Source of the DNA: Pseudomonadota bacterium
Lineage (GTDB): Bacteria > Pseudomonadota > Gammaproteobacteria > Burkholderiales > Rhodocyclaceae
NCBI GenBank assembly: GCA_021849505.1
Contig: JAJZSW010000009.1
Span: 1-52,806, forward strand
DNA: 52,806 nucleotides
Reading direction: 5' to 3'
Both the position numbers and the translations under genes were made by a program. The notes beneath the pieces were generated by a model. It saw only the letters and a list, made by a program, of their open reading frames with translations, did not search any database and was not told the origin of the DNA. The first letter of the stretch is position 1, and every line of letters begins with the position of its first letter. Below are positions 29,781 to 46,361 of the stretch, piece after piece.

Positions 29781-30250
29781 GACTGGACCTCCTTCAGCAG
29801 GGCCTCGGCGCGTTTCTTTTCCTCATCCGAAAGCGGAGTGTCGACGACCTCCTTGCTGCGCTGCTTCAGGAAGCGGACCAGTGCGAACAAGCCGATGAAC
29901 AGCAGCAGGAAGGGGCCGGCCCACAGCAGGTAGGTGGTGGGCTTGACCTGCGGCCGGTAGAGGACGAAATCGCCGTAGCGGCTGACGAGGAAGTCCTTGA
30001 CCTCGCTGTCGCTCTTGCCTTCCTTGATCAGCCCGCGCACTTCCTCGCGCAGGTCCTTGGCCAGCTCGGCCTGCGAGCCGGCGAGCGATTCGTTCTGGCA
30101 CACCAGGCAGCGCAGTTCTTCGGAAATCTCGATCAGGCGCTTTTCCACCACGGGGTCTTCGGCCAGCGGCGCAGCTTCCCTGGCGTGCAGGGGCAGGGAG
30201 AGAGACAGTGCCGCACAGGCGGCGAGCAGCAACTTCATTGACGCATTCAT
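29777..30250 (-). CDS. ccmH: Cytochrome c maturation protein CcmH
   Basis: 157 residues. A signal peptide (1-23) is followed by the redox motif LRCLVCQNESLAGSQAELAKDLR and a single C-terminal membrane helix (about 104-124, YLLWAGPFLLLFIGLFALVRFL). It reduces the apocytochrome Cys pair before haem ligation. This short form lacks the TPR part, which is the separate CcmI next door. Its start overlaps the ccmG stop by 4 bp. Confidence 0.95.
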   Translation of the reverse strand: MNASMKLLLAACAALSLSLPLHAREAAPLAEDPVVEKRLIEISEELRCLVCQNESLAGSQAELAKDLREEVRGLIKEGKSDSEVKDFLVSRYGDFVLYRPQVKPTTYLLWAGPFLLLFIGLFALVRFLKQRSKEVVDTPLSDEEKKRAEALLKEVQS

Positions 30251-30774: not shown

Positions 30775-32732
30775 GCGGCAGCTCCGGCCGCATTGGCAGA
30801 GACGGCAGCGGAAGATTTCGCCCGGATGCGGTAACGGCGATCCGCGGCGGCGAGCAGGCCACCGAGCGACATCAGCAGACAGCCGCCCCAGATCCAGTCG
30901 ACGAAGGGCTTGAAGTACACGCGCACCGCCCACGGGCCGTTTTCCTTGTCGGGCGACAGCGGCTCGGCGAGCGAGACATACACGTCGCGCGTGAAGCCGG
31001 CGTCGATGGCGGCCTCGGTCATCGGCATCTGCGAGCTGTCGTAGTCGCGTTTTTCGGGGTGCAGCAGGCGCAGCAGTTTGCCGTCCTGCGACAGTTCGAA
31101 GGTACCGACATCGGCGGTGTAGTTCGGGCCGCGCGATTCATGCACACCGAGGAACTTGAAGGTATGGCCGCCGACGCTGACGGTCTCGCCCGGCTCCATG
31201 CGCACGTCGCGTTCTTCTTCGTAGGTGCCGACCATCGCCACGCCGACGACAAACACGGCGAGGCCGAAGTGGGCGAGCTGCATGCCCCACCACGAAACGG
31301 TCGGGGAGCCGGCCTTGAGCCGCTCGACGGTCTGCAACACCCACGCGGCGACCATCCAGCCGACCAGCGCCAGTGCCAGGGCGACATAGGCATGCCACTC
31401 GCCGGCGAGCATGGGGAGCACGATCCCGGCGGCCACGGCAGCCACCGCGGCGGGCCACAGCTTCTTCAGCATCGCCGGGAGGTCGGCCTGCTTCCAGCGC
31501 GCCACCGGGCCAAGTGCCACCAGCACCAGCAGCGGCATCATGATCGGGATGAACACGGCGTTGAAGTAGGGCGGGCCGACGGAGATCTTGCCGCCGCCGA
31601 AGGCATCGACGATCAGCGGGTAGAGCGTGCCGAGCAGCACCGCGCCGCAGGCGACCACCAGCAATACGTTATTGACCAGCAGGAAGGTTTCGCGCGAGAC
31701 CAGTTCGAAGCGGCCGCCGAGGCTGACCTTGGGGGCACGTGCGGCAAACAGCAGCAGCGAGGCGCCGACGACGACGGCGAGCAGGATCAGGATGAACAGG
31801 CCGCGCTTCGGGTCGGTGGCGAAGGCATGCACCGAGGTGAGCACGCCGGAGCGCACGAGGAAGGTGCCGAGCAGCGAGAGCGAGAAGGCGGCGATCGCCA
31901 GCAAGACCGTCCAGTTCTTGAAGCTGCCGCGTTTTTCGGTAACGGCCAGCGAGTGGATCAGTGCGGTACAGACCAGCCAGGGCATGAAGGAGGCGTTTTC
32001 CACCGGGTCCCAGAACCACCAGCCGCCCCAGCCGAGTTCATAGTAGGCCCACCACGATCCGAGCGCGATGCCGAGGGTCAGGAACACCCAGGCCACCGTC
32101 GTCCAGGGGCGCGACCAGCGTGCCCAGGCGGCATCGAGCTGGCCGGCCAGCAGGGCGGCCATGGCGAAGGCGTAGGCGACCGCCATGCCGACATAACCCA
32201 TGTAGAGCAGCGGCGGGTGATAGATGAGGCCGGGATCCTGCAGCAGCGGGTTGAGCGAGCGGCCTTCGGCAGGCGGGGAGAGCAGGCGGTCGAAGGGGTT
32301 GGAAGTCAGTATCACGAAGGCGAGCAGGCCGACGGTGACCAGGCCGAGCACGCCCAGCACGCGCGCCACCATGGCAGCGGGCAGCTGGCGCGAGAAGGCG
32401 GCGACAGCCGCCGCCCAACCGACCAGCATGAACACCCAGAGCAGCAGCGAACCTTCGTGGCCGCCCCACACTGCCGACAGGCGATACATGAGCGGCAACT
32501 GGGTGTTGGAGTGACCCGCCACGTACTCGACGGAGAAGTCATTGACGTAGAAGGCCCAGGTCAGGCAGGCGAAGGACACTCCGACCAGCAGGAAGGCGGC
32601 GGCGGTGGCCGGCCGCGCGACAGCGACCCAGTCGGCGCGGTTCTTTTGCGCGCCGACCAGCGGCAGGACGCCTTGTACCAGCGAGACGAAAAAAGCGAGG
32701 ATCAGGGCGAAATGGCCGAGTTCAGGGATCAT
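30771..32732 (-). CDS. ccmF: Haem lyase subunit CcmF
   Basis: 653 residues with about 14-15 membrane helices. The WWD haem-handling motif WGGWWFWDPVENASFMPW is present, as are conserved periplasmic His regions (YHPPLLYMGYVG; GHEGSLLLW). CcmF takes haem from CcmE and, with CcmH/I, ligates it to apocytochromes. Length matches the family. It lies between ccmE and ccmG in canonical order. Confidence 0.97.
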   Translation of the reverse strand: MIPELGHFALILAFFVSLVQGVLPLVGAQKNRADWVAVARPATAAAFLLVGVSFACLTWAFYVNDFSVEYVAGHSNTQLPLMYRLSAVWGGHEGSLLLWVFMLVGWAAAVAAFSRQLPAAMVARVLGVLGLVTVGLLAFVILTSNPFDRLLSPPAEGRSLNPLLQDPGLIYHPPLLYMGYVGMAVAYAFAMAALLAGQLDAAWARWSRPWTTVAWVFLTLGIALGSWWAYYELGWGGWWFWDPVENASFMPWLVCTALIHSLAVTEKRGSFKNWTVLLAIAAFSLSLLGTFLVRSGVLTSVHAFATDPKRGLFILILLAVVVGASLLLFAARAPKVSLGGRFELVSRETFLLVNNVLLVVACGAVLLGTLYPLIVDAFGGGKISVGPPYFNAVFIPIMMPLLVLVALGPVARWKQADLPAMLKKLWPAAVAAVAAGIVLPMLAGEWHAYVALALALVGWMVAAWVLQTVERLKAGSPTVSWWGMQLAHFGLAVFVVGVAMVGTYEEERDVRMEPGETVSVGGHTFKFLGVHESRGPNYTADVGTFELSQDGKLLRLLHPEKRDYDSSQMPMTEAAIDAGFTRDVYVSLAEPLSPDKENGPWAVRVYFKPFVDWIWGGCLLMSLGGLLAAADRRYRIRAKSSAAVSANAAGAAA

Positions 32733-32753
32733 GGGAGGTGACCTGCTGGAGGG

Positions 32754-33194
32754 TTATTGTTTGATCGTCTTCTGGGCTTTTTGCGCCTGGTCGACGGCGT
32801 GCTGCGCTTCCGGTGGCATGTAGTTCTCGTCGTGCTTGGCAAGGACCTCGGTGGCCGAGAAGGTCCCGTCGGGGTTGATGCGCCCCTGGGCGACGGCGCC
32901 CTTGCCCTCCTGGAACAGGTCGGGCAGGATGCCCGTGTAGGTCACCGGAACCTCCCTGGCGGTATCGGTGATGGCGAAATGCACGGTCAGGTTGTCGCGG
33001 CGGATCGAGCCTTCCTTGACCATGCCGCCGATACGGAAGATCTTGCCCTGCGGCGCCTTGCCTTCCACCACTTCGGTGGGTGTGACGAAGAAGGCGATGT
33101 TGCTGTCGAGGGCATTGAGCACCAGGGCGGAAGCGATGCCGATGGCGGCGAGGCCGCCGCCGATCAGGGCGAAGCGTTTATGACGAGGTTTCAA
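32754..33194 (-). CDS. ccmE: Haem chaperone CcmE
   Basis: 146 residues. An N-terminal membrane anchor (about 7-27) is followed by an OB-fold. The haem-binding His lies in [13 protein letters not shown], with the conserved Tyr four residues on. It carries haem from the CcmABCD release complex to CcmF. It lies 21 bp upstream of ccmF. Confidence 0.96.
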
Positions 33195-33204
33195 TTGATT
33201 GCTC

Positions 33205-33387
33205 TCACTGAGTGTCCAGGGTTTCAGCCAATCGCTCGCGGCGCAGGCTGCGCAAAATATCCTTACGACGCCTGTTTGCCATGATTGGTTCCACGATCAT
33301 CAGCAGGGCGCAGACTCCGAAGCTGCCCCAGACGTAAAAACCATAGCCGCCCATGGCGAAGAAGGCGGCGGGAGATTCCCAGTTCAC
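33205..33387 (-). CDS. ccmD: Haem exporter protein CcmD
   Basis: 60 residues from GTG 33387, overlapping the ccmC stop (GTGA). One membrane helix (about 12-34, [24 protein letters not shown]) is followed by a basic cytoplasmic tail ([14 protein letters not shown]), typical of CcmD. It helps release holo-CcmE from CcmABC. It is easily missed because it starts with GTG. Confidence 0.9.
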
Positions 33388-34136
33388 TGTTTTACCTCCG
33401 GCAATTCCTTGACCCATTCGGTATGCGCTTCGCGCTCGAGGATGATGGCCCGAACCCGGGTTAAAGCGACGGCGATGGAATACATCCAGAAGGCCAGCGC
33501 CATGATCAGCATGCCCCACAGCATGGTGGTCGCCATCGACGGGGCCTTGGTCAGCGAAACCGAGGCGCCCTGATGCAGGGTGTTCCACCACTTCACCGAG
33601 AAGTAGATGATCGGCACATTGACGACGCCGACCAGCGCGAGGATCGCGCCGGCCTTGTCGGCGCGCCGGGCGTCGTCGATCGCCGCCTGCAGGGCGATGA
33701 AGCCGATGTAGAGGAAGAACAGGATCAGCGCCGAGGTCAGGCGTGCATCCCATACCCACCAGGCGCCCCACATCGGTTTGCCCCACCAGGCCCCGGTCCA
33801 CAGGCTGAGGAAGGCCATGATCGCGCCGGTGGGCGCCAGTGCCTGCGCCATCATGCTCGACAGCCGGGTGTTGAGTGCCAGCCCCAGCCCGGCCCAGAAG
33901 GCCATGACCAGGTAGATGAACATCGACATCCAGGCGGCCGGCACGTGGATGAAGATGATCCGGTAGCCTTCGCCCTGCTGGAAATCGGTCGGCGCCACGA
34001 AGAAGCTGATGTAGAGGCCGACGACGAAAAAGATGGCCGCCAGCCCCCAGAACCAGGGAATCATCCTGCCGGCGACCGGATAGAAGCTCTGCGGGCTCGC
34101 GTACTTGAACCAGTTGATGATCTTGTTGTTGCTCAC
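33384..34136 (-). CDS. ccmC: Haem exporter/transfer protein CcmC
   Basis: 250 residues from GTG 34136, overlapping the ccmB stop (GTGA). Six membrane helices carry the tryptophan-rich WWD motif WGAWWVWDARLTSALILF and the conserved FIHVPAAWMS. It attaches haem to CcmE. The longer open frame would add 12 residues within ccmB. Confidence 0.95.
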   Translation of the reverse strand: MSNNKIINWFKYASPQSFYPVAGRMIPWFWGLAAIFFVVGLYISFFVAPTDFQQGEGYRIIFIHVPAAWMSMFIYLVMAFWAGLGLALNTRLSSMMAQALAPTGAIMAFLSLWTGAWWGKPMWGAWWVWDARLTSALILFFLYIGFIALQAAIDDARRADKAGAILALVGVVNVPIIYFSVKWWNTLHQGASVSLTKAPSMATTMLWGMLIMALAFWMYSIAVALTRVRAIILEREAHTEWVKELPEVKQ

Positions 34137-34798
34137 TCCAGCGCAATCCTCAAAGCGGCCGTGGTCGCCCACGGCGCGAAAAATACGGCCAGCGCCAGCA
34201 GCGCGGCCAACAAAGACAAGTGCCCGCCGGCGCCCAGCCCGGAAATATGGGCCTCCACCGCGCCGGCACCGAAAATCAGCGCCGGTACGTAGAGCGGCAA
34301 GACCAGCAGCGACAGTAACACACCTCCACCGCGCAAGCCCAGCGTGAGCGCCGCGCCGATCGCGCCGATCAGCGACAGCAGCGGAGTACCGAGCAACAGC
34401 GCGACGACCAGAATGCCCAGTGCACCGGTATCGAGGTCGAACTGGATGCCCAGCACCGGCGCGAGGAGCACCAGCGGCAGCCCCGTCGTGATCCAGTGGG
34501 CGATGATTTTACCTGTGACGAGCAGACCCAGCGGGGCGGGGGCCAGCACCATCTGTTCGAGGGTGCCGTCGGCGTGATCCGGGGCGAACAGGCGCGCCAG
34601 GCCGAGCATGGTGGCGAGCAGCGCCGCCACCCACAGGATGCCGGGCGCGATCTTGCGCAGCAGCGCCGTTTCCGGACCGATGCCGAGGGGGAACAGGCTG
34701 ACGACGATGATGAAGAAGAACAGCGCGGTCAGCACCTCGCTCTTTCTGCGCATGGCCAGCAGCAGGTCGCGGCGGATGATGGCCATCACCGCATTCAT
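34133..34798 (-). CDS. ccmB: Haem exporter membrane protein CcmB
   Basis: 221 residues from ATG 34798, overlapping the ccmA stop (ATGA). Six membrane helices follow the typical start IIRRDLLLAMRRKSEVLTALFFFIIVVSLFPLGIG, and FAPDHADGTLEQMVLAPAPL is the family signature. With CcmA it forms the ABC module that releases holo-CcmE. Confidence 0.95.
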   Translation of the reverse strand: MNAVMAIIRRDLLLAMRRKSEVLTALFFFIIVVSLFPLGIGPETALLRKIAPGILWVAALLATMLGLARLFAPDHADGTLEQMVLAPAPLGLLVTGKIIAHWITTGLPLVLLAPVLGIQFDLDTGALGILVVALLLGTPLLSLIGAIGAALTLGLRGGGVLLSLLVLPLYVPALIFGAGAVEAHISGLGAGGHLSLLAALLALAVFFAPWATTAALRIALE

Positions 34799-35406
34799 GT
34801 GCCGACCTTCAGGACTTTGCCGTTGGGCAGGGGAATCGCCTGGTGGCTGGTGAGGATGGCGATGCCGCCATTTGTCACGTGCTCCACGATCAGCCCGGAG
34901 AGCATCTCGACCGCCTTGACGTCGAGCGCGGTGAAGGGCTCGTCGAGGATCCACAGCGTGGCCTTGCGCACCGCGAGACGGGCGAGCAGCACGCGGCGTT
35001 TCTGGCCGGCGGACAGGAAACGTACGTTCAGGTCCTCGCGCCCCCGCAGGCCGAAACGGGCCAGCGCCTTGAGCGCCGCCATTTCCTCAAGCGCCGTGCC
35101 GTCGAGTTGGGCGGCGAGTGTCAGGTTTTCCAGCGGGGTGAGTTCTTCCTTGACGGCGCCATGGTGGCCGAGGAACAGCAGCTGGCGGCGATAGCCCTCG
35201 GCCAGGACCTTGATCGGCTCTCCCTGCCAGAAGACTTCACCCTCTGCCGCGGGCGACAGGCCGGCGAGAATTCTGAGCAGGCTGGTCTTGCCGGCGCCGT
35301 TCTCGCCCTGCACGTGCAACCATTCGCCCGGACCGACCGCGAGATCGAGTCCGGCAAACAGGCGGCGCTCGCCGCGGACGCAGGAAAGGGCAGTGGCAGT
35401 CAGCAT
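34795..35406 (-). CDS. ccmA: ATP-binding protein CcmA of the haem maturation ABC complex
   Basis: 203 residues from ATG 35406 (MLTATALSCVRGERRLFAGL). Walker A is GENGAGKTSLL, the signature region is LSAGQKRRVLLARL and Walker B is TLWILDEPF. An ATG at 35436 would add ten unlikely residues. No clear ribosome-binding site precedes either start, and the FNR-like site upstream would place the transcription start almost at the ATG. It is the first gene of ccmABCDEFGHI-hpt. Confidence 0.93.
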   Translation of the reverse strand: MLTATALSCVRGERRLFAGLDLAVGPGEWLHVQGENGAGKTSLLRILAGLSPAAEGEVFWQGEPIKVLAEGYRRQLLFLGHHGAVKEELTPLENLTLAAQLDGTALEEMAALKALARFGLRGREDLNVRFLSAGQKRRVLLARLAVRKATLWILDEPFTALDVKAVEMLSGLIVEHVTNGGIAILTSHQAIPLPNGKVLKVGT

Positions 35407-35442
35407 GGGGGGCGAATTTTGCCTGAACGAACGCAAAAAGGC

Positions 35443-35860: not shown

Positions 35861-36739
35861 ATGGAATCGGTGTCGAGTCTGGCAGTGGCAGGCGGCTTCA
35901 TGGCCGTGCTGGGCATCGCGCTCGCGGGCCTGCTTGCCTTCGCCAACCGCAAGCTGTTCGTCTATGAGGATCCGCGCATCGGGGCGATCGAGGACCTGCT
36001 GCCGAAGTCGAATTGCGGCGCCTGCGGAGAGCCCGGCTGCCGCGGCTTCGCCGAAAAGGTGGTGACTGGCGACGTCGTACCCGCACAATGCACGGTCAGC
36101 TCTCCGCAGCAGCGCAAGGACATCGCCGACCTGCTGGGCGTCGAGGCCGGCAATATCGAGAAAAAAGTCGCGCGGCTGGCCTGCGCGGGCGGCAAGCATG
36201 TCGCTTTCATCCGGGCGCGCTATGCCGGCCTCAAGACCTGCCGCGCGGCGGCGGTGGTCGGCGGCGGGGGGAAGGAATGCGCCTGGGGCTGCCTCGGGCT
36301 GGGCGATTGCGAGGCGGTCTGCGAGTTCGATGCGCTCCACCTCGACATGCACGGCCTGCCCGTGGTCGATGCCGACAAGTGTGCCGCCTGCAACGATTGC
36401 GTCGAAGTCTGCCCCAAGGGCCTGTTCTCCCTCGAGCCGGTCAGCCGCAAGCTCTGGGTGGCCTGCAAGAACAAGGCGGATGGCGATACGGCGGAAGCCT
36501 CCTGCGAAGTGGCCTGCACCGCCTGCGGGAAGTGCGTGTCCGACGCGCCGCCGGGCCTGATCCGCCTCGACGGCAACCTCGCGACGATCCGTTACGAACT
36601 GAACAACTGGGCGACGCGCGGCCCGATCGAGCGCTGCCCGACCGGCGCCATCGTCTGGTTCGAACAGCCCAACACGGCGGTCAAGGGCGCCGCCGCGAAG
36701 AAGATCCTGCGGCAGGATGCGCTGCCCCAGTTGCACTGA
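35861..36739 (+). CDS. rnfB: Electron transport complex subunit RnfB, long multi-cluster form
   Basis: 292 residues. An N-terminal membrane anchor (about 8-28) is followed by the RnfB cluster motif SNCGACGEPGCRGFAEKVV. Further Cys clusters are CAWGCLGLGDCEAVCEF, CAACNDCVEVCPKGLF and CEVACTACGKCVSDAPPG, with CPTGAI last. E. coli RsxB has about 190 residues and fewer clusters; this form resembles the longer RnfB of clostridia and other anaerobes. RnfB accepts or donates electrons from ferredoxin. It is the first gene of the operon, followed 34 bp later by the oxidoreductase. Confidence 0.93.
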   Translation: MESVSSLAVAGGFMAVLGIALAGLLAFANRKLFVYEDPRIGAIEDLLPKSNCGACGEPGCRGFAEKVVTGDVVPAQCTVSSPQQRKDIADLLGVEAGNIEKKVARLACAGGKHVAFIRARYAGLKTCRAAAVVGGGGKECAWGCLGLGDCEAVCEFDALHLDMHGLPVVDADKCAACNDCVEVCPKGLFSLEPVSRKLWVACKNKADGDTAEASCEVACTACGKCVSDAPPGLIRLDGNLATIRYELNNWATRGPIERCPTGAIVWFEQPNTAVKGAAAKKILRQDALPQLH

Positions 36740-36773
36740 ACGAGCTGCACCGATTTCTGATTAGGAGTTTGTC

Positions 36774-39700
36774 ATGTTGATGAAACTGTTCAAGTCCGCC
36801 AAGAGCGATTCCGGCCAGGCCGCCGACCAGGTCAAGTATCCGGGCGTCCGCGACGCGGTCGACGGCAACACCGCCGTCATCCACGTCGAGCGCGAGTCCT
36901 CCGATGCGGCCGGCGCCTACCCGATCACGCCCTCGACGCAGATGGGCGAGTACTGGGCCGAGGCCGTCGCGCAGGGGCACCTCAACATCTCCGACAAGCC
37001 GCTGATCTTCATCGAGCCGGAATCGGAGCACGCCGCCGCGGGGGTCACCGCCGGGATGGCGATGACCGGCCTGCGCGCCACCAATTTCTCTTCGGCGCAG
37101 GGCGTCGCCTTCATGCACGAATCGCTCTACGGCGCGGTCGGCAAGCGCCTGCCCTACATCCTCAACATGGGCTGCCGCGCGATCACCAAGGCCTCGCTCA
37201 ACGTGCACTGCAGCCACGACGACTACCATTGCGTCGACGACACCGGCTTCATCCAGGTGATGGCGAAGAGCGCCACCGAGGCGGCCGACCTCAACCTGAT
37301 CGGCCGCAAGGTGGCCGAGCTGTCGCTCACTCCCGCGATCATCGGTCAGGACGGCTTCCTGACGACCCACCTGATCGAGTCCTGCGTGCTGCCCGAGCGC
37401 GAGCTGGTCGCTGAGTTTTGCGGCAAGCCGGACGACCTGATCGACACGCCGACCCCGGCGCAGCAGATGCTCTACGGCCCGAAGCGTCGCCGCGTGCCGG
37501 CCATCTGGGATGTCGATGTGCCGCTCGTTTCCGGCACGGTACAGAACCAGGATGCCTACATGCAGGCCGTTGCCGGCCAGCGTCCCTACTTCTTCGACCA
37601 CATTCCCGAAATTACCGACGCCTGCATGGCCGAATACGCCAGCCTGACCGGCCGCCGCTACCAGCGCGTCTCGACTTACAAGATCGAGGATGCCGATTAC
37701 CTGGTCGTCGGGATGGGCAGCATGATCGTGCAGGCGGAAGCCGTTGCGGATTACCTGCGCGCGACGCGCGGCCTCAAGGTCGGCGTCGTCAACGTCACGA
37801 TGTATCGTCCATTCCCGGGCGACCTGCTCGGCGAGATCGTCAAGGGCCGCAAGGGCGTGGCGGTGCTCGAGCGCACCGACCAGCCCCTCGCCGAAGACCT
37901 GCCGCTGATGCGCGAGATGCGCGCGACGGTGACCAAGTGCCTCGAAAACGGGCTGGCGCTGAACGAGGCGAAACCTTATCCCGGCTATGCCAGTTTCGCG
38001 GCCGGCGAGATGCCGCGCCTGTATTCCGGCTGCTTCGGCCTCGGTTCGCGCGACATGCAGCCCGAGGCGCTGATCGGCGCCATCGAGAACATGCTGCCCG
38101 ATGGCCCGAAGCGCAAGTTCTTCTACCTTTCCGTCGATTTCGTGCGCGACCCCTTCAATCCGAAGGACGAGATCCACCAGCAGGACCTCCAGGAAAAATA
38201 TCCGCGCATCCGCGAACTGGCCGTGCGCGGCTCGGAAAATCCCAACCTGCTGCCCAAGGGTGCGATCACCGTGCGCATGCACTCGGTGGGCGGCTGGGGC
38301 GCGATCACCACCGGCAAGAACCTGGCGATGACGCTGTTCGAGCTGCTCGGCTGGGACATCAAGGCCAATCCGAAATACGGCTCGGAGAAGAAGGGCCAGC
38401 CGACCACCTACTACCTCTCGGCCGCGCCGGAACCGATCCGCATCAACTGCGAATACACCTATGTCGACGTCGTGCTCTCGCCCGACCCGGCGGTGTTCGG
38501 CCATTCGAACCCGTTGTCCGGCCTGAAGAAGGGCGGCGTCTTCATCATCCAGTCCAACCTCGGCGACGAGACCTGGGCGAGTTTTCCGCTCTGGGCTCAG
38601 AAGTTCATCGTCGATAACGAGATCCATGTCTTCCATATCGATGCCTTCCAGGTGGCGCGCGAGGAGGCCGGTTCGGCCGACCTGCAACTGCGCATGCAGG
38701 GCATCGCCTTCCAGGGCGCTTTCTTTGCCGCCAGTCCGACCATGGCGAATGCCGGCCTCACCGAAGCCACGCTGTTCACGGCGATCGAGGCGCAGTTGCA
38801 GTCCAAGTTCGGCAGCAAGGGGGCGCGCGTCGTGCAGGACAACCTGCGCGTGGTGAAGCGCGGCTTCACCGAACTCAAGGAGATCACCGACAAGCAGGTC
38901 GGCGTCACCCGCAAGCAGCTGGCCAGGAAGGACGCCGGCCTGCCGGTCATGCTGGGGGAACTGCCCGCCAGCGACGGCAAGGTGGCCGACATCCACCGCT
39001 TCTGGGAGCAGACCGGCAACTTCTACCTGACCGGCAAGGGTTCCGACAACCTCGTCGATCCCTTCATCGGCGCTTCGCTGATGCCGGCCGCCACCGGCGT
39101 GTTCCGCGACATGACCGGCATCCGCTTCGAGCATCCGGTGTGGATCGCCGAGAACTGCACGGCCTGCGGCAACTGCTACGTCGAGTGCCCCGACTCCGCG
39201 ATCCCCGGCCTGGTCAGCACGATCGGCGACGTCTTCAACACCGTGGTCAACCGCATCGAGACGCAGGGGACGCCGACACGTTATCTGCGGCGCGGCGTGC
39301 GCACGCTGGAGAAGAAGCTGCGCGCCCTGGTGGGCGGCGGCGACGGCGTCGCGGTACGGCCGCTGGTCGACAAGGCGATCGAGGAAACCATCGCCGAAGC
39401 GGCCGAGGACGACTGGGAAAAGATGGGCGCCGAGTTCAAGCTGTTCACGAACGAGCTGGGCGACTTCGCCTTTGGCACCACCAAGCCCTACTGGACGCAG
39501 AAGGAAAAGAAGGCCAAGGGCAGCGGCGGCCTGTTCTCGATCACCATCAATCCCTACACCTGCAAGGGCTGCGCGCTGTGCGTGACGGTCTGCGACGACG
39601 ATGCGCTGAAGATGGTGACGCAGAGCGAGGAATCGGTGCAGAAGCTGCGCGACGACTGGAAGCTGTGGCTCGACCTGCCGACCACGCCGAAGGAGTACAG

Positions 39701-41693
39701 CCGCATCGACAGCCTCGACGAGAAGATCGGCGCGCTGGAAACCCTGCTGCTCGACAAGCAGAACTACAACGCGATGAACTGCGGCGACGGCGCCTGCCTG
39801 GGCTGCGGCGAAAAAACCGCGATCCATCTGTTCACCGCGACGGTGACGGCGCTGATGCAGCCGCGCGTCAAGGTTTTCGTGGCGAAGCTCGACGACCTGA
39901 TCGGCAGGCTCGAACAGCACATGCGCATCAAGCTCGCCTCGGCCGTCGACCTCACCGATACCAGCGCCGTGGTGCGCGCGGTGGAGGCCACCGGCCAGCA
40001 CGACCTGACCCTGTCCAACCTCGCCTCCAAGCTCAACGAGAACAAGCCCTCGCAATTGCTCGACCCGGTCTGGGTGAAGAACACCGCCCAACTGATCGAA
40101 AAGCTCAAGGACCTGCGCTGGCGTTATCTCGAAGGCCCGACCAAACGCGGCCGTGCCGACATGGGCATCGTCAACGCCACGGGCTGCACCTCGGTCTGGG
40201 GCGCCACCTGGCCCTACCACCCGTATCCTTTCCCCTGGGCTTCGCACCTGTTCCAGGATGCGCCCTCGGTGGCGATGGGCCTGTTCGAGGGCCACATGGC
40301 GAAGATGACCGAAGGCTTCAAGGCCGTGCGCATCGCCGAGAAGGAACTGGCCAATGACTACCTGCCCGACCGTGACGACGACTTCTTCCGTCGCTTCGGC
40401 TGGCGCCAGTTCTCGGCCGACGAGTGGCTGCTCTGCCCGCCCGTGGTGGCGATGGGGGGCGATGGCGCGATGTACGACATCGGCTTCCAGAACCTCTCGC
40501 GCGCCCTGATGTCGGGCATGCCCGTCAAGGTGTTCGTCGTCGATACGCAGGTGTACTCCAACACCGGCGGCCAGGCCTGCACCTCGGGCTTCATCTCCCA
40601 GGTGTCCGACATGGCACCCTACGGCAAGGCGCAGGGCGGCAAGCAGGAGACGCGCAAGGAGATCTCGCTGATCGGTCTCGCCCATCGCACCTCCTACGTG
40701 ATGCAGGGCTCGATCGCTCACGTCAATCACCTGATCGAAAGCTACATCGACGGCCTCAACAGCCGCCGGCCTGCGCTGTTCAATATCTATACGCCCTGTC
40801 CGCCGGAGCATGGCATCGGCGACGACAAGAGCGTCGACCAGAGCAAGCTCGCGGTCGAGAGCCGCGCCTATCCGCTGTTCCGCTTCGACCCGGACGCCGG
40901 CACCACCTTCCACGAGACCGTCAGCCTCGAAGGCAACCCGGCGCTCGACCAGGACTGGCCGACCTACACGCTCAAGTACAAGGACGACGCCGGCGCCGAG
41001 AAGAGCATGACCCTGCCGCTCACCTTCGCCGACTTCGCCGCGACGGAAGCGCGCTTCCTCAAGCAGTTCAAGAAGGCGCCGCCCGAGACCTGGAACGAGA
41101 ACATGGTGATGCTGGCCGACTTCATCCGGCTCGACGAGGACGAGCGCGAGGGCAAGTTCCCCTATATCTGGGCCGTCGATGCGAAGAACCGCCTGATGCG
41201 CCTGCTGGTCACCGCGGACATGGTGCGCTCGACCGAAGAACGCCTGCAGTTCTGGCGCCAGCTGCGCAACATCGCCGGCCTCGACGCCAGGCCGGCGGCC
41301 GACACCGGCGAGGTCGCCGCGCGCGTGCGCGCCGAGCTGCTGGCCAAGATCACTGCCAGCCTCGGCATGGCGGGCAGCGATTTTGGTGCCGTCCCGCCAG
41401 CGCCGACTTTCGCCGGCGAACCCGGCGGCGCCGCCAGCGGGGAATACGAGCCGGTCTGGGTCGAGACGCCGGAGTGCACGGCCTGTGACGAGTGCATCAA
41501 GCTCGCGCCGAAGACCTTCGCCTACAACGACCAGAAGCTGGCGATCGTCATCGACCCGAAGGGCGACAAGTTCGCCGATATCGTCAAGTCGGCCGAGAAG
41601 TGCACGGCCGGCTGCATCCATCCGGGCACGCCGTCGAACATGAACGAGCCGGGGATCGAGAAGCTGATGGCGCGGGCGGCAAAATACAACTGA
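36774..41693 (+). CDS. Giant 2-oxoacid (pyruvate-type):ferredoxin oxidoreductase fused to a C-terminal ferredoxin domain
   Basis: 1639 residues; usual NifJ/POR has about 1170-1200. The domain order is NifJ-like. An alpha domain (1-420, AYPITPSTQMGEYWAEAVA) and a gamma domain (about 500-720, MHSVGGWGAITTGKNLA) lead. Two [4Fe-4S] sites follow (CTACGNCYVECP near 793, CKGCALCVTVCDDDAL near 930). A TPP domain comes next (GDGACLGCGEKTAIHL near 1003; GGDGAMYDIGFQN near 1229; VYSNTGGQACTSG), with an insertion of roughly 120 residues. A final single-cluster ferredoxin (CTACDECIK...CTAGC, 1568-1610) is joined by an AVPPAPTF linker encoded by a dispersed repeat. It likely interconverts a 2-oxoacid plus CoA with acyl-CoA, CO2 and reduced ferredoxin. 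Lying between rnfB and rnfC, it probably exchanges electrons with Rnf. Confidence 0.88.
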   Translation: MLMKLFKSAKSDSGQAADQVKYPGVRDAVDGNTAVIHVERESSDAAGAYPITPSTQMGEYWAEAVAQGHLNISDKPLIFIEPESEHAAAGVTAGMAMTGLRATNFSSAQGVAFMHESLYGAVGKRLPYILNMGCRAITKASLNVHCSHDDYHCVDDTGFIQVMAKSATEAADLNLIGRKVAELSLTPAIIGQDGFLTTHLIESCVLPERELVAEFCGKPDDLIDTPTPAQQMLYGPKRRRVPAIWDVDVPLVSGTVQNQDAYMQAVAGQRPYFFDHIPEITDACMAEYASLTGRRYQRVSTYKIEDADYLVVGMGSMIVQAEAVADYLRATRGLKVGVVNVTMYRPFPGDLLGEIVKGRKGVAVLERTDQPLAEDLPLMREMRATVTKCLENGLALNEAKPYPGYASFAAGEMPRLYSGCFGLGSRDMQPEALIGAIENMLPDGPKRKFFYLSVDFVRDPFNPKDEIHQQDLQEKYPRIRELAVRGSENPNLLPKGAITVRMHSVGGWGAITTGKNLAMTLFELLGWDIKANPKYGSEKKGQPTTYYLSAAPEPIRINCEYTYVDVVLSPDPAVFGHSNPLSGLKKGGVFIIQSNLGDETWASFPLWAQKFIVDNEIHVFHIDAFQVAREEAGSADLQLRMQGIAFQGAFFAASPTMANAGLTEATLFTAIEAQLQSKFGSKGARVVQDNLRVVKRGFTELKEITDKQVGVTRKQLARKDAGLPVMLGELPASDGKVADIHRFWEQTGNFYLTGKGSDNLVDPFIGASLMPAATGVFRDMTGIRFEHPVWIAENCTACGNCYVECPDSAIPGLVSTIGDVFNTVVNRIETQGTPTRYLRRGVRTLEKKLRALVGGGDGVAVRPLVDKAIEETIAEAAEDDWEKMGAEFKLFTNELGDFAFGTTKPYWTQKEKKAKGSGGLFSITINPYTCKGCALCVTVCDDDALKMVTQSEESVQKLRDDWKLWLDLPTTPKEYSRIDSLDEKIGALETLLLDKQNYNAMNCGDGACLGCGEKTAIHLFTATVTALMQPRVKVFVAKLDDLIGRLEQHMRIKLASAVDLTDTSAVVRAVEATGQHDLTLSNLASKLNENKPSQLLDPVWVKNTAQLIEKLKDLRWRYLEGPTKRGRADMGIVNATGCTSVWGATWPYHPYPFPWASHLFQDAPSVAMGLFEGHMAKMTEGFKAVRIAEKELANDYLPDRDDDFFRRFGWRQFSADEWLLCPPVVAMGGDGAMYDIGFQNLSRALMSGMPVKVFVVDTQVYSNTGGQACTSGFISQVSDMAPYGKAQGGKQETRKEISLIGLAHRTSYVMQGSIAHVNHLIESYIDGLNSRRPALFNIYTPCPPEHGIGDDKSVDQSKLAVESRAYPLFRFDPDAGTTFHETVSLEGNPALDQDWPTYTLKYKDDAGAEKSMTLPLTFADFAATEARFLKQFKKAPPETWNENMVMLADFIRLDEDEREGKFPYIWAVDAKNRLMRLLVTADMVRSTEERLQFWRQLRNIAGLDARPAADTGEVAARVRAELLAKITASLGMAGSDFGAVPPAPTFAGEPGGAASGEYEPVWVETPECTACDECIKLAPKTFAYNDQKLAIVIDPKGDKFADIVKSAEKCTAGCIHPGTPSNMNEPGIEKLMARAAKYN
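41386..41410 (+). repeat. Dispersed 25-bp repeat inside the giant oxidoreductase gene
   Basis: One difference from the consensus. It encodes AVPPAPTF (residues about 1538-1546), precisely in the linker between the TPP part and the C-terminal ferredoxin. Confidence 0.88.
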
Positions 41694-41702
41694 TCCAGTT
41701 CG

Positions 41703-43082
41703 ATGAAACTCCTTTCCTACTTCCGCGGCGAGGCCTTCCAGCGGGGCGTGCATCCGCCGTCCTGCAAGCTGACGGCGGACACGAAGATCCGCCGGTTGCC
41801 GTTCCCGCCGCAGGTGATCGTGCCGCTGTCGCAGCACATCGGCAAGCCGCCGCGCCCCGTCGTCAAGGTGGGGCAGGAAGTGGTCCGTGGCCAACCCATT
41901 GCGCGTACCGATGACTGGCTGTCGGTACCGCACCATGCGCCGGTGACGGGGGTGGTCGAGTTCGTCGGCCTGCGTCCCGGCATGCGCGGGCCGTGGATCG
42001 ACTCGATCGTGATCCGCGCCCATCCGGGCGCGACGCAGGAGGATCTCTGGGGCCAGCCGCAGGACCTGTCCGATACGACCCGCGACGCGCTGCTGCAGGC
42101 AATCTGGGATACCGGCATGGTCGGCCTTGGCGGCGCGGCCTTCCCGACGCACGCCAAGCTGACGGTGCCGAAGCAGGCCAAGGTCCACACGCTGGTGGTA
42201 AATGGCTGCGAGTGCGAGCCCTACCTGACCTGCGACCACCGCGTCATGGTCGAGCAGGCCGACGCCCTGATCGTCGGCATCCGCTACGCGATGCGTGCGA
42301 CCGGCGCGGTGCGCGCCATTGTCGGCATCGAGGACAACAAGCCGGATGCCGCCGCCGCGATCGGTGCGGCGTTGCAGCGCTCCGGACCGGCGCCGGAGGG
42401 GGACATCCACGCCGAACTGGTGCCGACCAAGTATCCGCAGGGATCCGAAAAGATGCTGATCATGGCGCTGTTCGGCGTTGAGATTCCCGCCGGCGGGTTG
42501 CCTGTGTCGATCGGCATGGTGGTCAACAACGTCGGCACGCTCGCCGCGCTGGGCCAGTTGCTGCCCAGGGGACGCGGACTCACCGAACGCGTGGTGACGA
42601 TCACCGGCCCGGGCGTCGCGCGGCCGGGCGACTACATCGTGCCGCTCGGCACGCCGCTGCGCTTCATCCTCGATTATGCGGGCGCCAAGGATGTGGAGGC
42701 GCGCCAGGTGATCCTCGGCGGGCCGATGATGGGCCAGGCCGCCGCCTCGCTCAATGTGCCGGTCACCAAGGGCATCTCCGGCGTGCTGGTGCTGCGCGGC
42801 GACGAGGCGATGCGCCACGAGGACCGCAAGATCTACCCGTGCATCAAGTGCGCCGAGTGCGTCGAATCCTGCCCGATGGGACTCAATCCCTCGACGCTCG
42901 GCATGCTGGCGGCCAAGCGCGAATACGACCTGATGGGCGAGCGGTACCACCTCGGCGAATGCTTCGAATGCGGCTGTTGTTCCTACGTCTGTCCGGCCAA
43001 CATCCCGCTGGTGCAGCAGTTCCGCGTCGCCAAGCAGATCCTGCGCGAGAAGGCCGCTGCCGAGAAAGCGACTGCAAAGTAA
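41703..43082 (+). CDS. rnfC: Electron transport complex subunit RnfC
   Basis: 459 residues. The N-terminal RnfC domain (GVHPPSCKLTAD), the NADH/FMN-binding region (GLGGAAFPTHAKL, VNGCECEPYLTCDHRVM) and an SLBB domain precede two [4Fe-4S] motifs, CIKCAECVESCP and CFECGCCSYVCP. RnfC oxidises or reduces NAD(H) on the cytoplasmic face. Its stop overlaps the rnfD start (TAATG). Confidence 0.96.
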   Translation: MKLLSYFRGEAFQRGVHPPSCKLTADTKIRRLPFPPQVIVPLSQHIGKPPRPVVKVGQEVVRGQPIARTDDWLSVPHHAPVTGVVEFVGLRPGMRGPWIDSIVIRAHPGATQEDLWGQPQDLSDTTRDALLQAIWDTGMVGLGGAAFPTHAKLTVPKQAKVHTLVVNGCECEPYLTCDHRVMVEQADALIVGIRYAMRATGAVRAIVGIEDNKPDAAAAIGAALQRSGPAPEGDIHAELVPTKYPQGSEKMLIMALFGVEIPAGGLPVSIGMVVNNVGTLAALGQLLPRGRGLTERVVTITGPGVARPGDYIVPLGTPLRFILDYAGAKDVEARQVILGGPMMGQAAASLNVPVTKGISGVLVLRGDEAMRHEDRKIYPCIKCAECVESCPMGLNPSTLGMLAAKREYDLMGERYHLGECFECGCCSYVCPANIPLVQQFRVAKQILREKAAAEKATAK

Positions 43083-44242
43083 TGGCCATCGAAATCCGTT
43101 CCGCCCCGCACATCAAGACGCCCGTCAGCGTCGAGACGATCATGCGCCACGTCGTCTGGTCGCTGCTGCCGATCTGCGCCTTCTTCGTCTATCAGTACGG
43201 CCTCTCGGCGCTCGCCTCGATCCTCGTCGTCACCGGCAGCTGCCTCGCCGCCGAGCGCCTGTTCGCCGCCACCGGCACGCAGTCCGGCGACATCCGCGAC
43301 TGGTCGGCCGTGATCACCGGCCTGCTGCTCGCGCTTTCGCTGCCGCCCGCTTTCCCGCTCTGGATGGGTGCCGTGGCCGGCTTCGTGGCGATTGCATTGG
43401 GCAAGGCCCTGTTCGGCGGCATCGGTTTCAACGTCTTCAACCCGGCGCTGGTCGGCCGTGCCTTCGCGCAGGCCGCCTTCCCACAGGCGATCGCGAGCTA
43501 CTCGCCATCCTTCCTGCCCGGCCGCTTCACCGAGTTCGTGCCGACTTCGCTCGCCTGGCCCCTGATGCAGCCGGCCGACCTGATGCTTTGGCTGAAAGAC
43601 AAGCAGCTCGACGCGCTGGCCGCCGCGACGCCGCTGGCGAAGTGGAAGTTCGAGGGCGTGCTCGCCGGCGCCGAGGAACTGGTGACCTCGCTGTCCGGCC
43701 ACATGGCGGTGGGCCCGTCGCCGGCGCTGATCCTCGTCTGCGGCATCTACCTCGCCTTCCGCCGCTTCCTCGACTGGCGCATCCCGGCGGCCATCCTCGG
43801 CAGCGCCGGCCTGACGGCCTGGCTGCTGTTCGCGCTGAGCCCGGATCGCTTCCCGAACCCCTTCTTCATGTTGTTCTCGGGCGGCCTGATCCTCGGTGCG
43901 GTGTACATGGCGACCGACATGGCGACCTCGCCGGTGACGCCCAAGGGCATGTGGCTCTACGGCGGGCTGATCGGCCTGCTGACCGTGATCATCCGCTATT
44001 ACAGCGGCCTGCCCGAGGGCGTGATGTACGCGATCCTGCTCGCCAACGCGGCCACGCCGCTGATCGAGAAGGTGACGCAGCCGACGCCTTTCGGCAAGAG
44101 CGCGCTGGCGCGGCTTGGCCAGGCGAAGCGCGGCGCCTCCTATCCGCTGCACCCGGGCTACATTTCGCGCGAGGATGCCGGTGCCGTAACGCCCAAGAAG
44201 CGCTTCCTGCCCAACAAACCCAAGCATCCGCCCAAGGAATGA
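43082..44242 (+). CDS. rnfD: Electron transport complex subunit RnfD
   Basis: 386 residues from ATG 43082 (MAIEIRSAPHIKTPVSVETIM), with about nine or ten membrane helices. The expected covalent FMN site is Thr183 in LDALAAATPLAKWKF. It keeps the Asp and Ala-Thr of the ApbE recognition pattern (Dxx[ST]GAT) but has Ala-Ala where Ser-Gly is usual. RnfD forms part of the ion-translocating membrane core. Confidence 0.94.
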   Translation: MAIEIRSAPHIKTPVSVETIMRHVVWSLLPICAFFVYQYGLSALASILVVTGSCLAAERLFAATGTQSGDIRDWSAVITGLLLALSLPPAFPLWMGAVAGFVAIALGKALFGGIGFNVFNPALVGRAFAQAAFPQAIASYSPSFLPGRFTEFVPTSLAWPLMQPADLMLWLKDKQLDALAAATPLAKWKFEGVLAGAEELVTSLSGHMAVGPSPALILVCGIYLAFRRFLDWRIPAAILGSAGLTAWLLFALSPDRFPNPFFMLFSGGLILGAVYMATDMATSPVTPKGMWLYGGLIGLLTVIIRYYSGLPEGVMYAILLANAATPLIEKVTQPTPFGKSALARLGQAKRGASYPLHPGYISREDAGAVTPKKRFLPNKPKHPPKE

Positions 44243-44250
44243 GCTGCGGC

Positions 44251-44937
44251 ATGAACAATACCCAGACCCTGCCGCAAATGACGCCCGCCGTGGCGATGAT
44301 CCGCACGCTCGGGCTGATCGCCGCGCTGTGCGGCGTGATCATCGTCGCCGCCTACCAGGGCACCTACGATGCCGTGCAGGAGAACAAGCGCATCGCCGTG
44401 GAGCGCGCGGTGTTCAAGGTGGTGCCCGCCGCCAAGTCGATCGTCGAGTACTTTGCCCTGGCCGACGGCAAGCTTGAAAAAGTCGGCGCTGGCGAGACGG
44501 CACAATCCGGCGCCATCAAGTTCTACGCCGGCTACGACAAGGACGGCAGGCTCGTCGGTATCGCCGCCGAGGGCGCCGCGAAAGGCTATGCCGACACCGT
44601 GCGCATCCTGTTCGCCTGGGAACCCGCGACGCAGCAGGTTCCCGGCTTCGGCGTGGTGTCCTCGCGCGAGACCCCGGGCATCGGCGACAAGATCGTTCTC
44701 GACAAGAATTTTCTCGCCAACTTTCCGCTCGAAGCACGATTGCGGGCGGACGGCCAGGCGCTCGCCCACGAGATCCAGACCGTGAAGCACGGCAGCAAGG
44801 CGAATCCCTGGGAGATCGATGCCATCGCCGGCGCGACGATCACCTCGCGCGCCGTCGGCAAGGCGATCAACGACGCGGCGCAGATCCTGCTGCCGCGCAT
44901 CCGGCCGCATCTGGACACGCTGAAGGAAAAGCCATGA
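44251..44937 (+). CDS. rnfG: Electron transport complex subunit RnfG
   Basis: 228 residues from ATG 44251, with AAGGA 12 bases upstream. An ATG at 44239 overlapping the rnfD stop would add four residues. One membrane helix (about 17-38) is followed by a periplasmic FMN-binding domain. The flavinylation site is Thr in DAIAGATITSRAV. Near the middle, KVGAGETAQ is encoded by a copy of the dispersed repeat (44479-44503). The stop overlaps the rnfE start. Confidence 0.92.
   Translation: MNNTQTLPQMTPAVAMIRTLGLIAALCGVIIVAAYQGTYDAVQENKRIAVERAVFKVVPAAKSIVEYFALADGKLEKVGAGETAQSGAIKFYAGYDKDGRLVGIAAEGAAKGYADTVRILFAWEPATQQVPGFGVVSSRETPGIGDKIVLDKNFLANFPLEARLRADGQALAHEIQTVKHGSKANPWEIDAIAGATITSRAVGKAINDAAQILLPRIRPHLDTLKEKP
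44479..44503 (-). repeat. Dispersed 25-bp repeat inside rnfG
   Basis: A minus-strand copy with two differences. In the rnfG frame it encodes KVGAGETA. Confidence 0.82.
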
Positions 44938-45593
44938 GCATCGTCATGAGTGCCACGACGACCGACCGCTGGGACGAATTCATGGAGGGCGTCTGGCGGC
45001 AGAACCCGCTGTTCGTCATGGTGCTGGGCCTCTGCCCGGCGCTGGCGGTGACCGTCTCGGCGATCAACGCGCTGTCGATGGGGCTGGCCACCGCCTTCGT
45101 GCTGACCTGCTCGGCGCTGCTGGTGTCCCTGTTGCGCAGGATGATCCCGAAGGAGGTGCGCATCGCCACCTACATCGTCATCATCGCCACCTTCGTCACG
45201 GTGGTGGACTACCTGATCCAGGCCATCAGCCTCGCGCTCTACGACGCGCTCGGCGCCTTCATCCAGCTCATCGTCGTCAACTGCATGATCCTCGGCCGCG
45301 CCGAGGCGCATGCTTCGAAGAACCCGCCTGGCATCGCCGTCATCAACGCGCTGGGCATGAGCGCGGGTTTCGCCATCGGCCTGTTCGCACTCGGCGCGGT
45401 GCGCGAGATTCTCGGCGCCGGCACGCTGTTCGGCATTTCGCTGTTCGGCTCCGGTTTCCAGCCCTGGGTGGTGATGGTGCTGCCGCCGGGCGGCTTCTTC
45501 GTGTTGGGGATGTGGCTGCTGGTGTTCGCTGCCTGGGGGCGCTGGCGCCAACGTCGGCAGGCGCGGCAAGCGGAGGCGACGCGACATGCATGA
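44934..45593 (+). CDS. rnfE: Electron transport complex subunit RnfE
   Basis: 219 residues with six membrane helices. Typical motifs are NPLFVMVLGLCPALAVT, IQLIVVNCMILGRAEAHASKN and GAVREILGAGTLFG, each including family-conserved Cys residues that may bind the intramembrane iron-sulfur centre with RnfA. The basic, Arg-rich C-terminal tail overlaps rnfA by 8 bp. Confidence 0.95.
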   Translation: MSIVMSATTTDRWDEFMEGVWRQNPLFVMVLGLCPALAVTVSAINALSMGLATAFVLTCSALLVSLLRRMIPKEVRIATYIVIIATFVTVVDYLIQAISLALYDALGAFIQLIVVNCMILGRAEAHASKNPPGIAVINALGMSAGFAIGLFALGAVREILGAGTLFGISLFGSGFQPWVVMVLPPGGFFVLGMWLLVFAAWGRWRQRRQARQAEATRHA

Positions 45594-46164
45594 GTCCGCC
45601 GCCCAGGTCTTCATCAACGCCTTCCTCGCCAACAACTTCGTGCTGGCGATGTTCCTCGGGCTCTGCCCCTTCATCGGCGTCTCGGGCAAGCTCGAGACCG
45701 CCGCGCCGATGGGCGCCGCCACCACCTTCGTGATGCTGGTCGCGTCGCTGTGCGCCTACGGCCTCAACCTGCTGCTGGCCTATTTCAACCTGGAGTTCCT
45801 GCGCCTGATCGCCTACATCGTCATCATCGCCTCGGCCGTGCAACTCGTCGAGATGGTGCTGAAGAAGTACAGCCCGGGCCTGTTCCGTGCGCTCGGCATC
45901 TACCTGCCGCTGATCACCACCAACTGCGCGGTGCTCGGCGTTGCGCTGTTCCAGACCGCGCGCGAATACGACTTCGTGCAGTCGGTCACTTTCGCGGTCG
46001 GCGCGGGCGCGGGCTTCACGCTGGCGATCATCCTGATGGCCAGCGTGCGCGAGCGCCTGCAGTTGTCCGACGTACCGTCGGTGGCGCAGGGCGCGGCGCT
46101 CTCCTTCATGCTCGCCGGCATTCTTTCGCTCGCCTTCATGGGCTTCGCCGGCCTCGGCGGCTAG
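45586..46164 (+). CDS. rnfA: Electron transport complex subunit RnfA
   Basis: 192 residues with six membrane helices. The signatures are NNFVLAMFLGLCPFIGVS, YLPLITTNCAVLGVALF and SVRERLQLSDVP. It pairs with RnfE in the membrane core that moves ions. Order here is B-(oxidoreductase)-C-D-G-E-A, as in clostridial-type clusters (CDGEAB) with rnfB moved to the front. Confidence 0.95.
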   Translation: MHESAAQVFINAFLANNFVLAMFLGLCPFIGVSGKLETAAPMGAATTFVMLVASLCAYGLNLLLAYFNLEFLRLIAYIVIIASAVQLVEMVLKKYSPGLFRALGIYLPLITTNCAVLGVALFQTAREYDFVQSVTFAVGAGAGFTLAIILMASVRERLQLSDVPSVAQGAALSFMLAGILSLAFMGFAGLGG

Positions 46165-46172
46165 GACGCATT

Positions 46173-46361
46173 GTGGGCACCTATCTCGTCACCATTGGCC
46201 TGATATTCGCGCTTCTGCTCGCCGGCATCGCGGTCGATCGGCTGTATCGGGACTTTGCAGCACGTCATCCCCAGCTCGGGCCGTTCCGCAAGAACGATGG
46301 CGCGTGCGGCTGTTGCGCCGGCAAGTGCGGCGACGGCGATGCCGGCAGCTGCGGTCGTTAG
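46173..46361 (+). CDS. Small Cys-rich single-pass membrane protein at the end of the rnf operon
   Basis: 62 residues from GTG 46173, 8 bp after rnfA. One membrane helix (about 4-22, YLVTIGLIFALLLAGIAVDRL) is followed by a short tail with five Cys (GACGCCAGKCG...GSCGR). Layout and position resemble NqrM (DUF539), the Cys-rich factor needed to insert iron into the related Na+-NQR complex, but sequence identity is not obvious. A role in Rnf metal-centre assembly is inference. Its stop overlaps the end of the convergent sixA by 4 bp. Confidence 0.68.
   Translation: MGTYLVTIGLIFALLLAGIAVDRLYRDFAARHPQLGPFRKNDGACGCCAGKCGDGDAGSCGR

Follow-up and report, generated by a model that had tools for sequence, protein, structure and literature searches.

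The window analysed here, 52,806 nucleotides of contig JAJZSW010000009.1 (positions 1 to 52,806, forward strand) from a bacterium of the Rhodocyclaceae (assembly GCA_021849505.1; genome G000, 2.75 Mb, 94% complete), carries an operon for the Rnf complex in which the gene of a giant 2-oxoacid:ferredoxin oxidoreductase, here termed gA, lies between rnfB and rnfC. The layout recurs at other gA loci, and in a sister operon the same slot is held by a gA homologue, gB, that lacks the catalytic motifs. The recurrence of the layout and the sister layout with its dead copy suggest that the enzyme is a built-in part of the pump. From these sequence comparisons we consider it probable (∼0.6) that gA is a dedicated, docked pyruvate:ferredoxin oxidoreductase (PFOR) built into Rnf, which would feed RnfB via a tethered ferredoxin. 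The gA-Rnf system is real, conserved and poorly described; the arrangement itself is not first seen here.

Layout and conservation of the gA-rnf operon

The genes of the operon are all on the plus strand, in the order rnfB, gA, rnfC, rnfD, rnfG, rnfE and rnfA, followed by a 62-amino acid (aa) Cys-rich open reading frame (ORF) (Table 1). Successive gaps from rnfB to the small ORF are 34, 9, −1, 8, −4, −8 and 8 bp. An earlier note on this DNA had described rnfB-gA-rnfCDGEA as lying on one strand with very short gaps or overlaps, and the values found (−8 to 34 bp) bear this out. The set of six Rnf subunits (A, B, C, D, E and G) is complete: B, C, D, E and A score over the TIGRFAM cut-offs and rnfG was assigned by FMN_bind. 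The RnfB product also matches RnfB structures in the PDB (9eri_B, 1e-51; 7zc6_B, 9.3e-44). The window operon thus shares all six subunits and their BCDGEA order with the Rnf complex, and differs from a standard Rnf operon in the enzyme gene between rnfB and rnfC and in an ORF of NqrM-like shape 3′ of rnfA.

A contig scan revealed at least 591 places encoding gA relatives, of which the best 80 were used; because the best matches were retained, this set leans toward close relatives. Identity in the gA subfamily is 57–87%, and the record titles in the set include Rhodocyclales, Rhodoferax, Thiobacillus, Gallionellales, Sedimenticola, Thiothrix, Thiocapsa, Ectothiorhodospira and Thiodiazotropha. 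At the testable named Beta- and Gammaproteobacterial loci among these 80, rnfB was found 5′ of gA in 76 of 77, rnfC 3′ of it in 68 of 68, and both in 67 of 67. The complete order B-gA-C-D-G-E-A was present at all 58 named loci that were long enough, and such conservation excludes a chance layout.

Of 369 genomes drawn evenly from the class, 21 encode gA (the window's own genome included), and at the testable loci (L267 added; genomes, contigs and loci are cited by our G, C and L numbers) rnfB adjoins gA in 15/16 and rnfC in 16/17. One miss is L161, in which rnfB is found on the far side of rnfA (L216); the other is L171, a partial gene. In 61 relatives of the host, 22 genomes hold gA and rnfC adjoins it in every one. 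The earlier proposal that the order implies one functional unit agrees with this linkage, which is near-universal in the gA subfamily.

That note had also considered the combination poorly described. A single sentence on it was indeed found in the open-access literature searched, and it shows that the arrangement had already been noticed in 2014: in the Solemya velum symbiont, PFOR genes were placed between rnfB2 and rnfC2 of the rnf2 cluster, with pyruvate suggested as the electron donor (PMC4287430). The pertinent portion of that account holds neither domain analysis nor survey, and we liken the two systems by description. An oxidoreductase in an rnf operon is not mentioned in the portions searched of a 2025 RNF/NQR review.

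Domains, motifs and predicted structure of gA

gA has the hallmarks of the 2-oxoacid:ferredoxin oxidoreductase superfamily, namely the POR_N, PFOR_II and POR gamma domains, the thiamine pyrophosphate (TPP) motif GDG...N and the proximal-cluster cysteines. Pfam domains over cut-off were POR_N at residues 44–272 (149.5 bits), PFOR_II at 307–387 (53.1 bits), POR gamma (Table 1), TPP_enzyme_C at 1223–1280 and Fer4_13 at 1564–1616; Fer4 motifs were detected below cut-off. In the PDB, gA matched the PFORs 6cin, 1b0p and 7plm with E values of 1.6e-82 to 2.5e-81. PFORs rank first in both the profile and the fold comparisons, which supports pyruvate as the substrate. With NifJ/PFOR of D. africanus (1b0p) and M. 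thermoacetica (6cin), gA shares the domain order, the TPP and three-cluster motifs, YPITPS and the fold of the modelled parts. Unlike these enzymes, it is ∼430 residues longer, with two helical inserts, a fused ferredoxin and a location in an rnf operon.

Alignment to three normal PFORs of relatives (1196–1222 aa) gave a length excess of 417–443 aa, so that the figure of some 450 residues in the earlier note is roughly right; added segments of ≥10 residues total 432 residues. The extra residues fall mainly at 847–914, ∼1022–1128 and most of 1400–1639, the last range comprising the C-terminal extension (∼1400–1554) and the ferredoxin (1558–1639), and residues 819–828 and 847–914 are missing from the aligned normal PFORs. 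The largest insert (∼1022–1128) lies just before the TPP core and not within the TPP domain, where it had been placed. Motifs were counted in the 89 full-length sequences among 95 gA proteins: the terminal CxxCxxC is present in 89/89, and the only sequence without the proximal CxGC[GS]E is L163. By motif, gA would be catalytically competent. The mean majority share was 0.83 in the TPP core, 0.79 in the ferredoxin, 0.63 and 0.67 in the inserts, and 0.39, the lowest measured, in the linker (1530–1556).

A model of residues 440–1639 was built from 48 homologues. Both inserts are mostly helical in it, and its best Foldseek match is the PFOR 6cin (3.8e-21) at a TM-score of 0.31; its predicted single domains are usable and its global arrangement is not. 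In a second model (residues 1377–1639; predicted local distance difference test, pLDDT, 83.5) a well-predicted extension, a linker and a ferredoxin follow one another. The ferredoxin superimposes on D. africanus ferredoxin I (1fxr; TM-score 0.85 on target, root-mean-square deviation 0.8), and this fold, together with Fer4_13 over cut-off, supports the C-terminal ferredoxin of the earlier note. It was the sole Foldseek match at E ≤0.001 with the C-terminal part, the extension itself yielding no fold match at this level. The linker (1535–1555) is predicted to be disordered, with pLDDT under 50. The low pLDDT and lowest conservation of the linker, and the ferredoxin fold, are consistent with a tethered ferredoxin that may swing on it.

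The sister operon, distant relatives and neighbouring genes

The class also contains a sister operon, korA-korB-[∼840 aa]-rnfB-gB-(sucC-sucD)-rnfC-D-G-E-A. gB is 1464–1603 aa long (1264–1292 aa in two small genomes) and homologous to gA almost end to end, with 25–30% identity, without the terminal ferredoxin. YPITP, the TPP motif GDG...NTGG and the proximal CxGC[GS]E were each found in none of 31 distinct gB sequences, and two CxxCxxCxxxC [4Fe-4S] motifs are kept in 31/31. In that alignment, all 17 rows of gA, gC (see below) and normal PFOR contain the four motifs. The count left out the 517-aa fragment L248 and L203, which failed the 38% identity filter; checked singly, L203 also lacks the YPITP, TPP and proximal-cluster motifs.

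At the 33 gB loci, many with a flank of 1.5 kb only, rnfB adjoins gB in 32 (exception L249), sucC is present in 15 and rnfC in 17. The ∼840-aa protein is similar to gA over the latter's C-terminal half. In the nine long loci its TPP motif is missing throughout, it ends in a ferredoxin in eight (the ferredoxin is a separate ORF in L205), and the KorA and KorB motifs are intact in all nine. The loss of catalytic motifs, the kept slot and the adjoining live KorAB argue for an adaptor role of gB. Since no catalytic motifs remain, binding and electron relay are the likeliest reason for its retention.

Of 119 genomes sampled evenly from the order to which G783 belongs, 77 have a gA- or gB-like match and 25 a gB match of ≥40% identity. 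Equal match coordinates link this order to Thiocapsa, Sedimenticola and Thiodiazotropha genomes. Among 25 named genomes searched, two carry gB: Ca. Sedimenticola endophacoides (L099) and Sedimenticola thiotaurini HyVt-443 (L090). Both systems occur together in G783, G606 and G657. In the Riftia symbiont, a 'PFOR-like' enzyme and a korAB fall together in expression, according to passages of PMC11636981. The gB sister operon appears new: nothing on the gB form was found in the open-access literature searched.

When 398 genomes were sampled evenly across the phylum, 41 of them matched gA at 1e-100; three of these are gA itself, and the other 38 belong to other classes (35–46% identity). These distant relatives are either a two-subunit enzyme, D (∼680 + 555 aa), or a giant, gC (∼1680 aa). 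At L185, L189 and L201, gC (1677–1678 aa) keeps the catalytic motifs and has no rnf match nearby; its neighbour is a 956–982-aa protein whose domains are those of an NfnB-NfnA fusion. We count the position of gC beside this Nfn-like NAD(P) protein in favour of a dedicated gA-Rnf unit. D of G066 (L197, L222) lies in one gene run with an unassigned 263-aa ORF, sdhB, sdhA, sucC, sucD and KorAB, the last sequence-equal to the 2-oxoglutarate:ferredoxin oxidoreductase of Magnetococcus marinus (PDB 6n2n A/B). Because this run already has a 2-oxoglutarate enzyme, D is more likely the pyruvate enzyme of the set, and pyruvate is therefore supported for gA by inference.

A maximum-likelihood tree, unrooted, was computed from 51 rows in quick mode (E_L209_14235, a wrong ORF, and the long row gBs_G546 left out), with support from the Shimodaira-Hasegawa-like approximate likelihood ratio test (SH-aLRT) only. 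In it, each group formed one side of a branch: gA 100, gB 100, normal PFOR 100, D 99 and gC 100. gA and gB were united against the remaining rows with SH-aLRT 98, a grouping that is a lead and not proof because the gB branch is long and many rows deviate in composition. Separately, G025 (L148:8082-14656) encodes a relative of the ∼840-aa protein that is 722 aa long and bears a terminal ferredoxin; it lies beside KorA-like and GltD-like proteins and is perhaps a soluble NAD(P)-linked version.

The small Cys-rich ORF has a counterpart 3′ of rnfA in 62 of 74 loci by pattern search. A Pfam search with it gave no match. Its identification as NqrM (PF04400, cut-off 22 bits) was rejected, the best match in the genome (13.9 bits) being on a different contig. 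It is possible that it acts as a maturation factor for the RnfA/E iron-sulfur site. Divergent from rnfB, ORFs on the minus strand (29777-35436) resemble by eye a cytochrome c maturation (ccm) cluster. Elsewhere in the host genome, a fragment at a contig edge (C137:4-108) matches the end of the rnfC model; in several members of the host genus, two or three rnfC loci score over cut-off, so a second Rnf, cut off at C137, may exist in the host.

Table 1. Features of the gA-rnf operon in the window, with residue ranges referring to gA, and location of the sister operon.
Feature	Coordinates	Strand	Size or residues	Evidence
rnfB, electron-input subunit of Rnf	35861..36739	+	292 aa	TIGR01944 74.8 bits (cut-off 68.7)
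gA, giant 2-oxoacid:ferredoxin oxidoreductase	36774..41693	+	1639 aa	Pfam/NCBIfam, PDB PFORs, Foldseek
YPITPST motif, domain I	36918..36938	+	49-55	YPITP in 89/89 full-length gA, 0/31 gB
POR (gamma) domain	38289..38867	+	506-698	PF01558 93.4 bits
First CxxCxxCxxxC [4Fe-4S] motif	39156..39188	+	795-805	Two such motifs in 89/89 gA
Insert 1 region, helical, between two ferredoxin-type clusters	39228..39515	+	819-914	Alignment, model
Second CxxCxxCxxxC [4Fe-4S] motif	39561..39593	+	930-940	Motif search
Proximal-cluster CxxC (CLGCGE)	39795..39806	+	1008-1011	CxGC[GS]E in 88/89 gA, 0/31 gB
Insert 2, mostly helical, proximal cluster to TPP core	39837..40157	+	1022-1128	Alignment, model
TPP-binding motif GDG...YSNTGG	40458..40571	+	1229-1266	89/89 gA, 0/31 gB
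C-terminal extension, mixed strands and helices	40962..41309	+	1397-1512	Alignment; pLDDT block means 93-98 (1397-1496)
Flexible linker (predicted)	41376..41438	+	1535-1555	pLDDT <50, low conservation
C-terminal ferredoxin-I-like single-cluster domain	41451..41633	+	1560-1620	PF13370 27.0 bits (cut-off 24.5); Foldseek 1fxr
rnfC, NAD-side subunit	41703..43082	+	459 aa	TIGR01945 465 bits (cut-off 246)
rnfD	43082..44242	+	386 aa	TIGR01946 273 bits (cut-off 207)
rnfG	44251..44937	+	228 aa	TIGR01947 96.6 bits, under cut-off 102; PF04205 FMN_bind 57.3 (cut-off 22)
rnfE	44934..45593	+	219 aa	TIGR01948 216.8 bits (cut-off 213.4)
rnfA	45586..46164	+	192 aa	TIGR01943 244 bits (cut-off 229)
Small ORF, GTG start, one hydrophobic stretch and Cys-rich tail	46173..46361	+	62 aa	NqrM-like shape
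Sister operon (G783)	L202:2902-17862			Further loci L203-L205, L210-L214, L223, L224, L244-L266

Proposed function and alternatives

In the proposed mechanism, gA would convert pyruvate and coenzyme A (CoA) to acetyl-CoA and CO2, or catalyze the reverse reaction, and electrons would pass from TPP through three [4Fe-4S] clusters to the C-terminal ferredoxin on its flexible linker. With gA docked at RnfB, the tethered ferredoxin would swing between the PFOR clusters and those of RnfB, and Rnf would carry the electrons from RnfB via RnfA/E, RnfG and RnfD to RnfC, and on to NAD+, with ion movement. In the reverse option, NADH and the ion gradient would drive pyruvate synthesis via gA. That RnfB accepts electrons from ferredoxin and RnfC hands them to NAD+ is established, as set out in a section of PMC12174285. 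The idea of a link to polyhydroxyalkanoate metabolism, raised in the earlier note, has a precedent: for Kentron symbionts, a PFOR was proposed for pyruvate synthesis during polyhydroxyalkanoate use, and the relevant part of that report describes no Rnf coupling (PMC6593406).

Docking to RnfB or Rnf, pyruvate as the substrate and the electron path through gA are what we infer. The strongest argument for docking is that motif-dead gB holds the same slot, with two relay-cluster motifs, beside an intact-motif KorAB; and because this homologue has lost its active site, docking is directly testable.

The operon might instead reflect co-transcription only, with gA a soluble PFOR that reduces a free ferredoxin pool shared with Rnf and the common operon serving co-regulation. 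Rnf does accept electrons from cytoplasmic ferredoxins (part of PMC12174285), gA relatives exist away from rnf, and at some loci hundreds of bases separate gA from rnfC (largest match-to-match gap, 831 bases). However, the slot is conserved in 58/58 long named loci, gA has its own fused ferredoxin, and co-regulation of an enzyme leaves unexplained why gB, without catalytic motifs, occupies the same slot. We regard this explanation as unlikely, although it survives better than the others.

It is more doubtful still that gA acts on another 2-oxoacid, chiefly 2-oxoglutarate, as the KorAB and SucCD of the sister operon (korAB in 9/9 long operons, sucC in 15/33 gB loci, many with a short flank) might indicate. 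The catalytic motifs of the sister operon sit on the separate KorAB and not on the gA homologue, the gene list of gA's own operon in the window has no sucCD, and the best profile of gA is that of PFOR, albeit under cut-off.

NifJ and Rnf are both connected to nitrogen fixation in other bacteria. The authors of a Rhodoferax antarcticus study suggested a NifJ role for a PFOR gene beside electron transfer genes (pertinent passage of PMC5374385). A NifJ-like supply of electrons to nitrogenase by gA-Rnf is disfavoured by the nifH counts, and we judge it very improbable: nifH over cut-off in 10/22 gA genomes vs. 8/39 without gA indicates some degree of association, but 12 of the 22 lack a nifH over cut-off (fragments occur in G014 and G019), among them the single-contig G017 and G028 and the 3-contig G002, each listed as 100% complete, and eight genomes have nifH without gA.

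Several observations weigh against gA being a docked PFOR built into Rnf. First, gA scored 419 bits with the PFOR equivalog TIGR02176 (cut-off 911.35), and two further gA proteins 409 and 407, vs. 1665 and 1754 for two normal PFORs of relatives. The family alone thus does not decide the substrate, and gA should be filed not as a NifJ equivalog but, on its domains and motifs, among the divergent members of the 2-oxoacid:ferredoxin oxidoreductase superfamily, as one that would work like PFOR. Second, the 440–1639 model is only of moderate confidence (mean pLDDT 69, predicted TM-score 0.52). Third, the single rnfB miss among the named loci, L085 (2247-6644), has a gA 73% identical with no rnf match in 15.7 kb, and its ORF (1466 aa) terminates before the ferredoxin. 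The match stops at residue 1518, so that L085 stands outside the rnfC tests; counted in, rnfC would be at 68/69.

Fourth, none of the 20 stretches of D and gC taken (35–44% identity; 8.8–19 kb each) had an rnf match. A concern raised earlier, that homologues might lie mostly away from rnf, is thus warranted for these distant relatives and not for the gA subfamily. Rnf linkage is a trait of the gA and gB subfamilies and not of the whole family, and catalysis in the wider family would not require Rnf. Fifth, the E1 component of pyruvate dehydrogenase (aceE) was matched in 22/22 gA genomes among the 61 relatives (in G009 and G014 by under-cut-off fragments only). Isocitrate lyase was over cut-off in 19/22, and together these counts indicate that gA is not strictly needed for either pyruvate oxidation or acetate assimilation. 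We rejected the ideas that gA is the sole pyruvate dehydrogenase and, in the host genus, that it is needed for want of a glyoxylate shunt. Finally, the host itself encodes a PorAB-like enzyme together with an NAD(P) protein that is GltD/PorD-like, of the PRK12771 type (L150:2144-6047, contig C18); an aceE match starts at C18:6864 on the opposite strand. PorAB resembles gA in being a 2-oxoacid oxidoreductase that has an NAD(P) partner of its own; unlike the Rnf of gA, that partner is no membrane pump.

A stronger form of the docked-PFOR reading, which we put at slightly under even odds, is that (i) gA is a true seventh Rnf subunit, forming a membrane-docked, ion-pumping pyruvate:NAD+ oxidoreductase or an ion-driven pyruvate synthase; and (ii) gB is the same subunit after loss of its active site, now a pure electron-relay adaptor through which, together with the ferredoxin-bearing 840-aa protein, KorAB and succinyl-CoA synthetase would connect to Rnf. 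An extra cytoplasmic subunit is also found in Azotobacter vinelandii, where RnfH accompanies Rnf1; in contrast to gA, RnfH carries no cofactor and is without homologues in the other complexes, as far as the pertinent text of PMC12174285 goes.

The purple sulfur bacterium Allochromatium vinosum has three rnf clusters, and the role of its Rnf was termed entirely unclear in 2011 (passage in PMC3368242). The organisms concerned here are sulfur, iron and purple bacteria and animal symbionts. Oxidation of pyruvate and 2-oxoglutarate by the usual dehydrogenases is not known to involve ion coupling. A docked enzyme-Rnf unit would turn these oxidations into coupling sites; alternatively, NADH and the ion gradient would drive CO2 fixation onto acyl-CoA. 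If the stronger reading is true, the adaptor role of gB would make one step of the tricarboxylic acid cycle an ion-pumping site, and Rnf would be a modular platform for 2-oxoacid metabolism.

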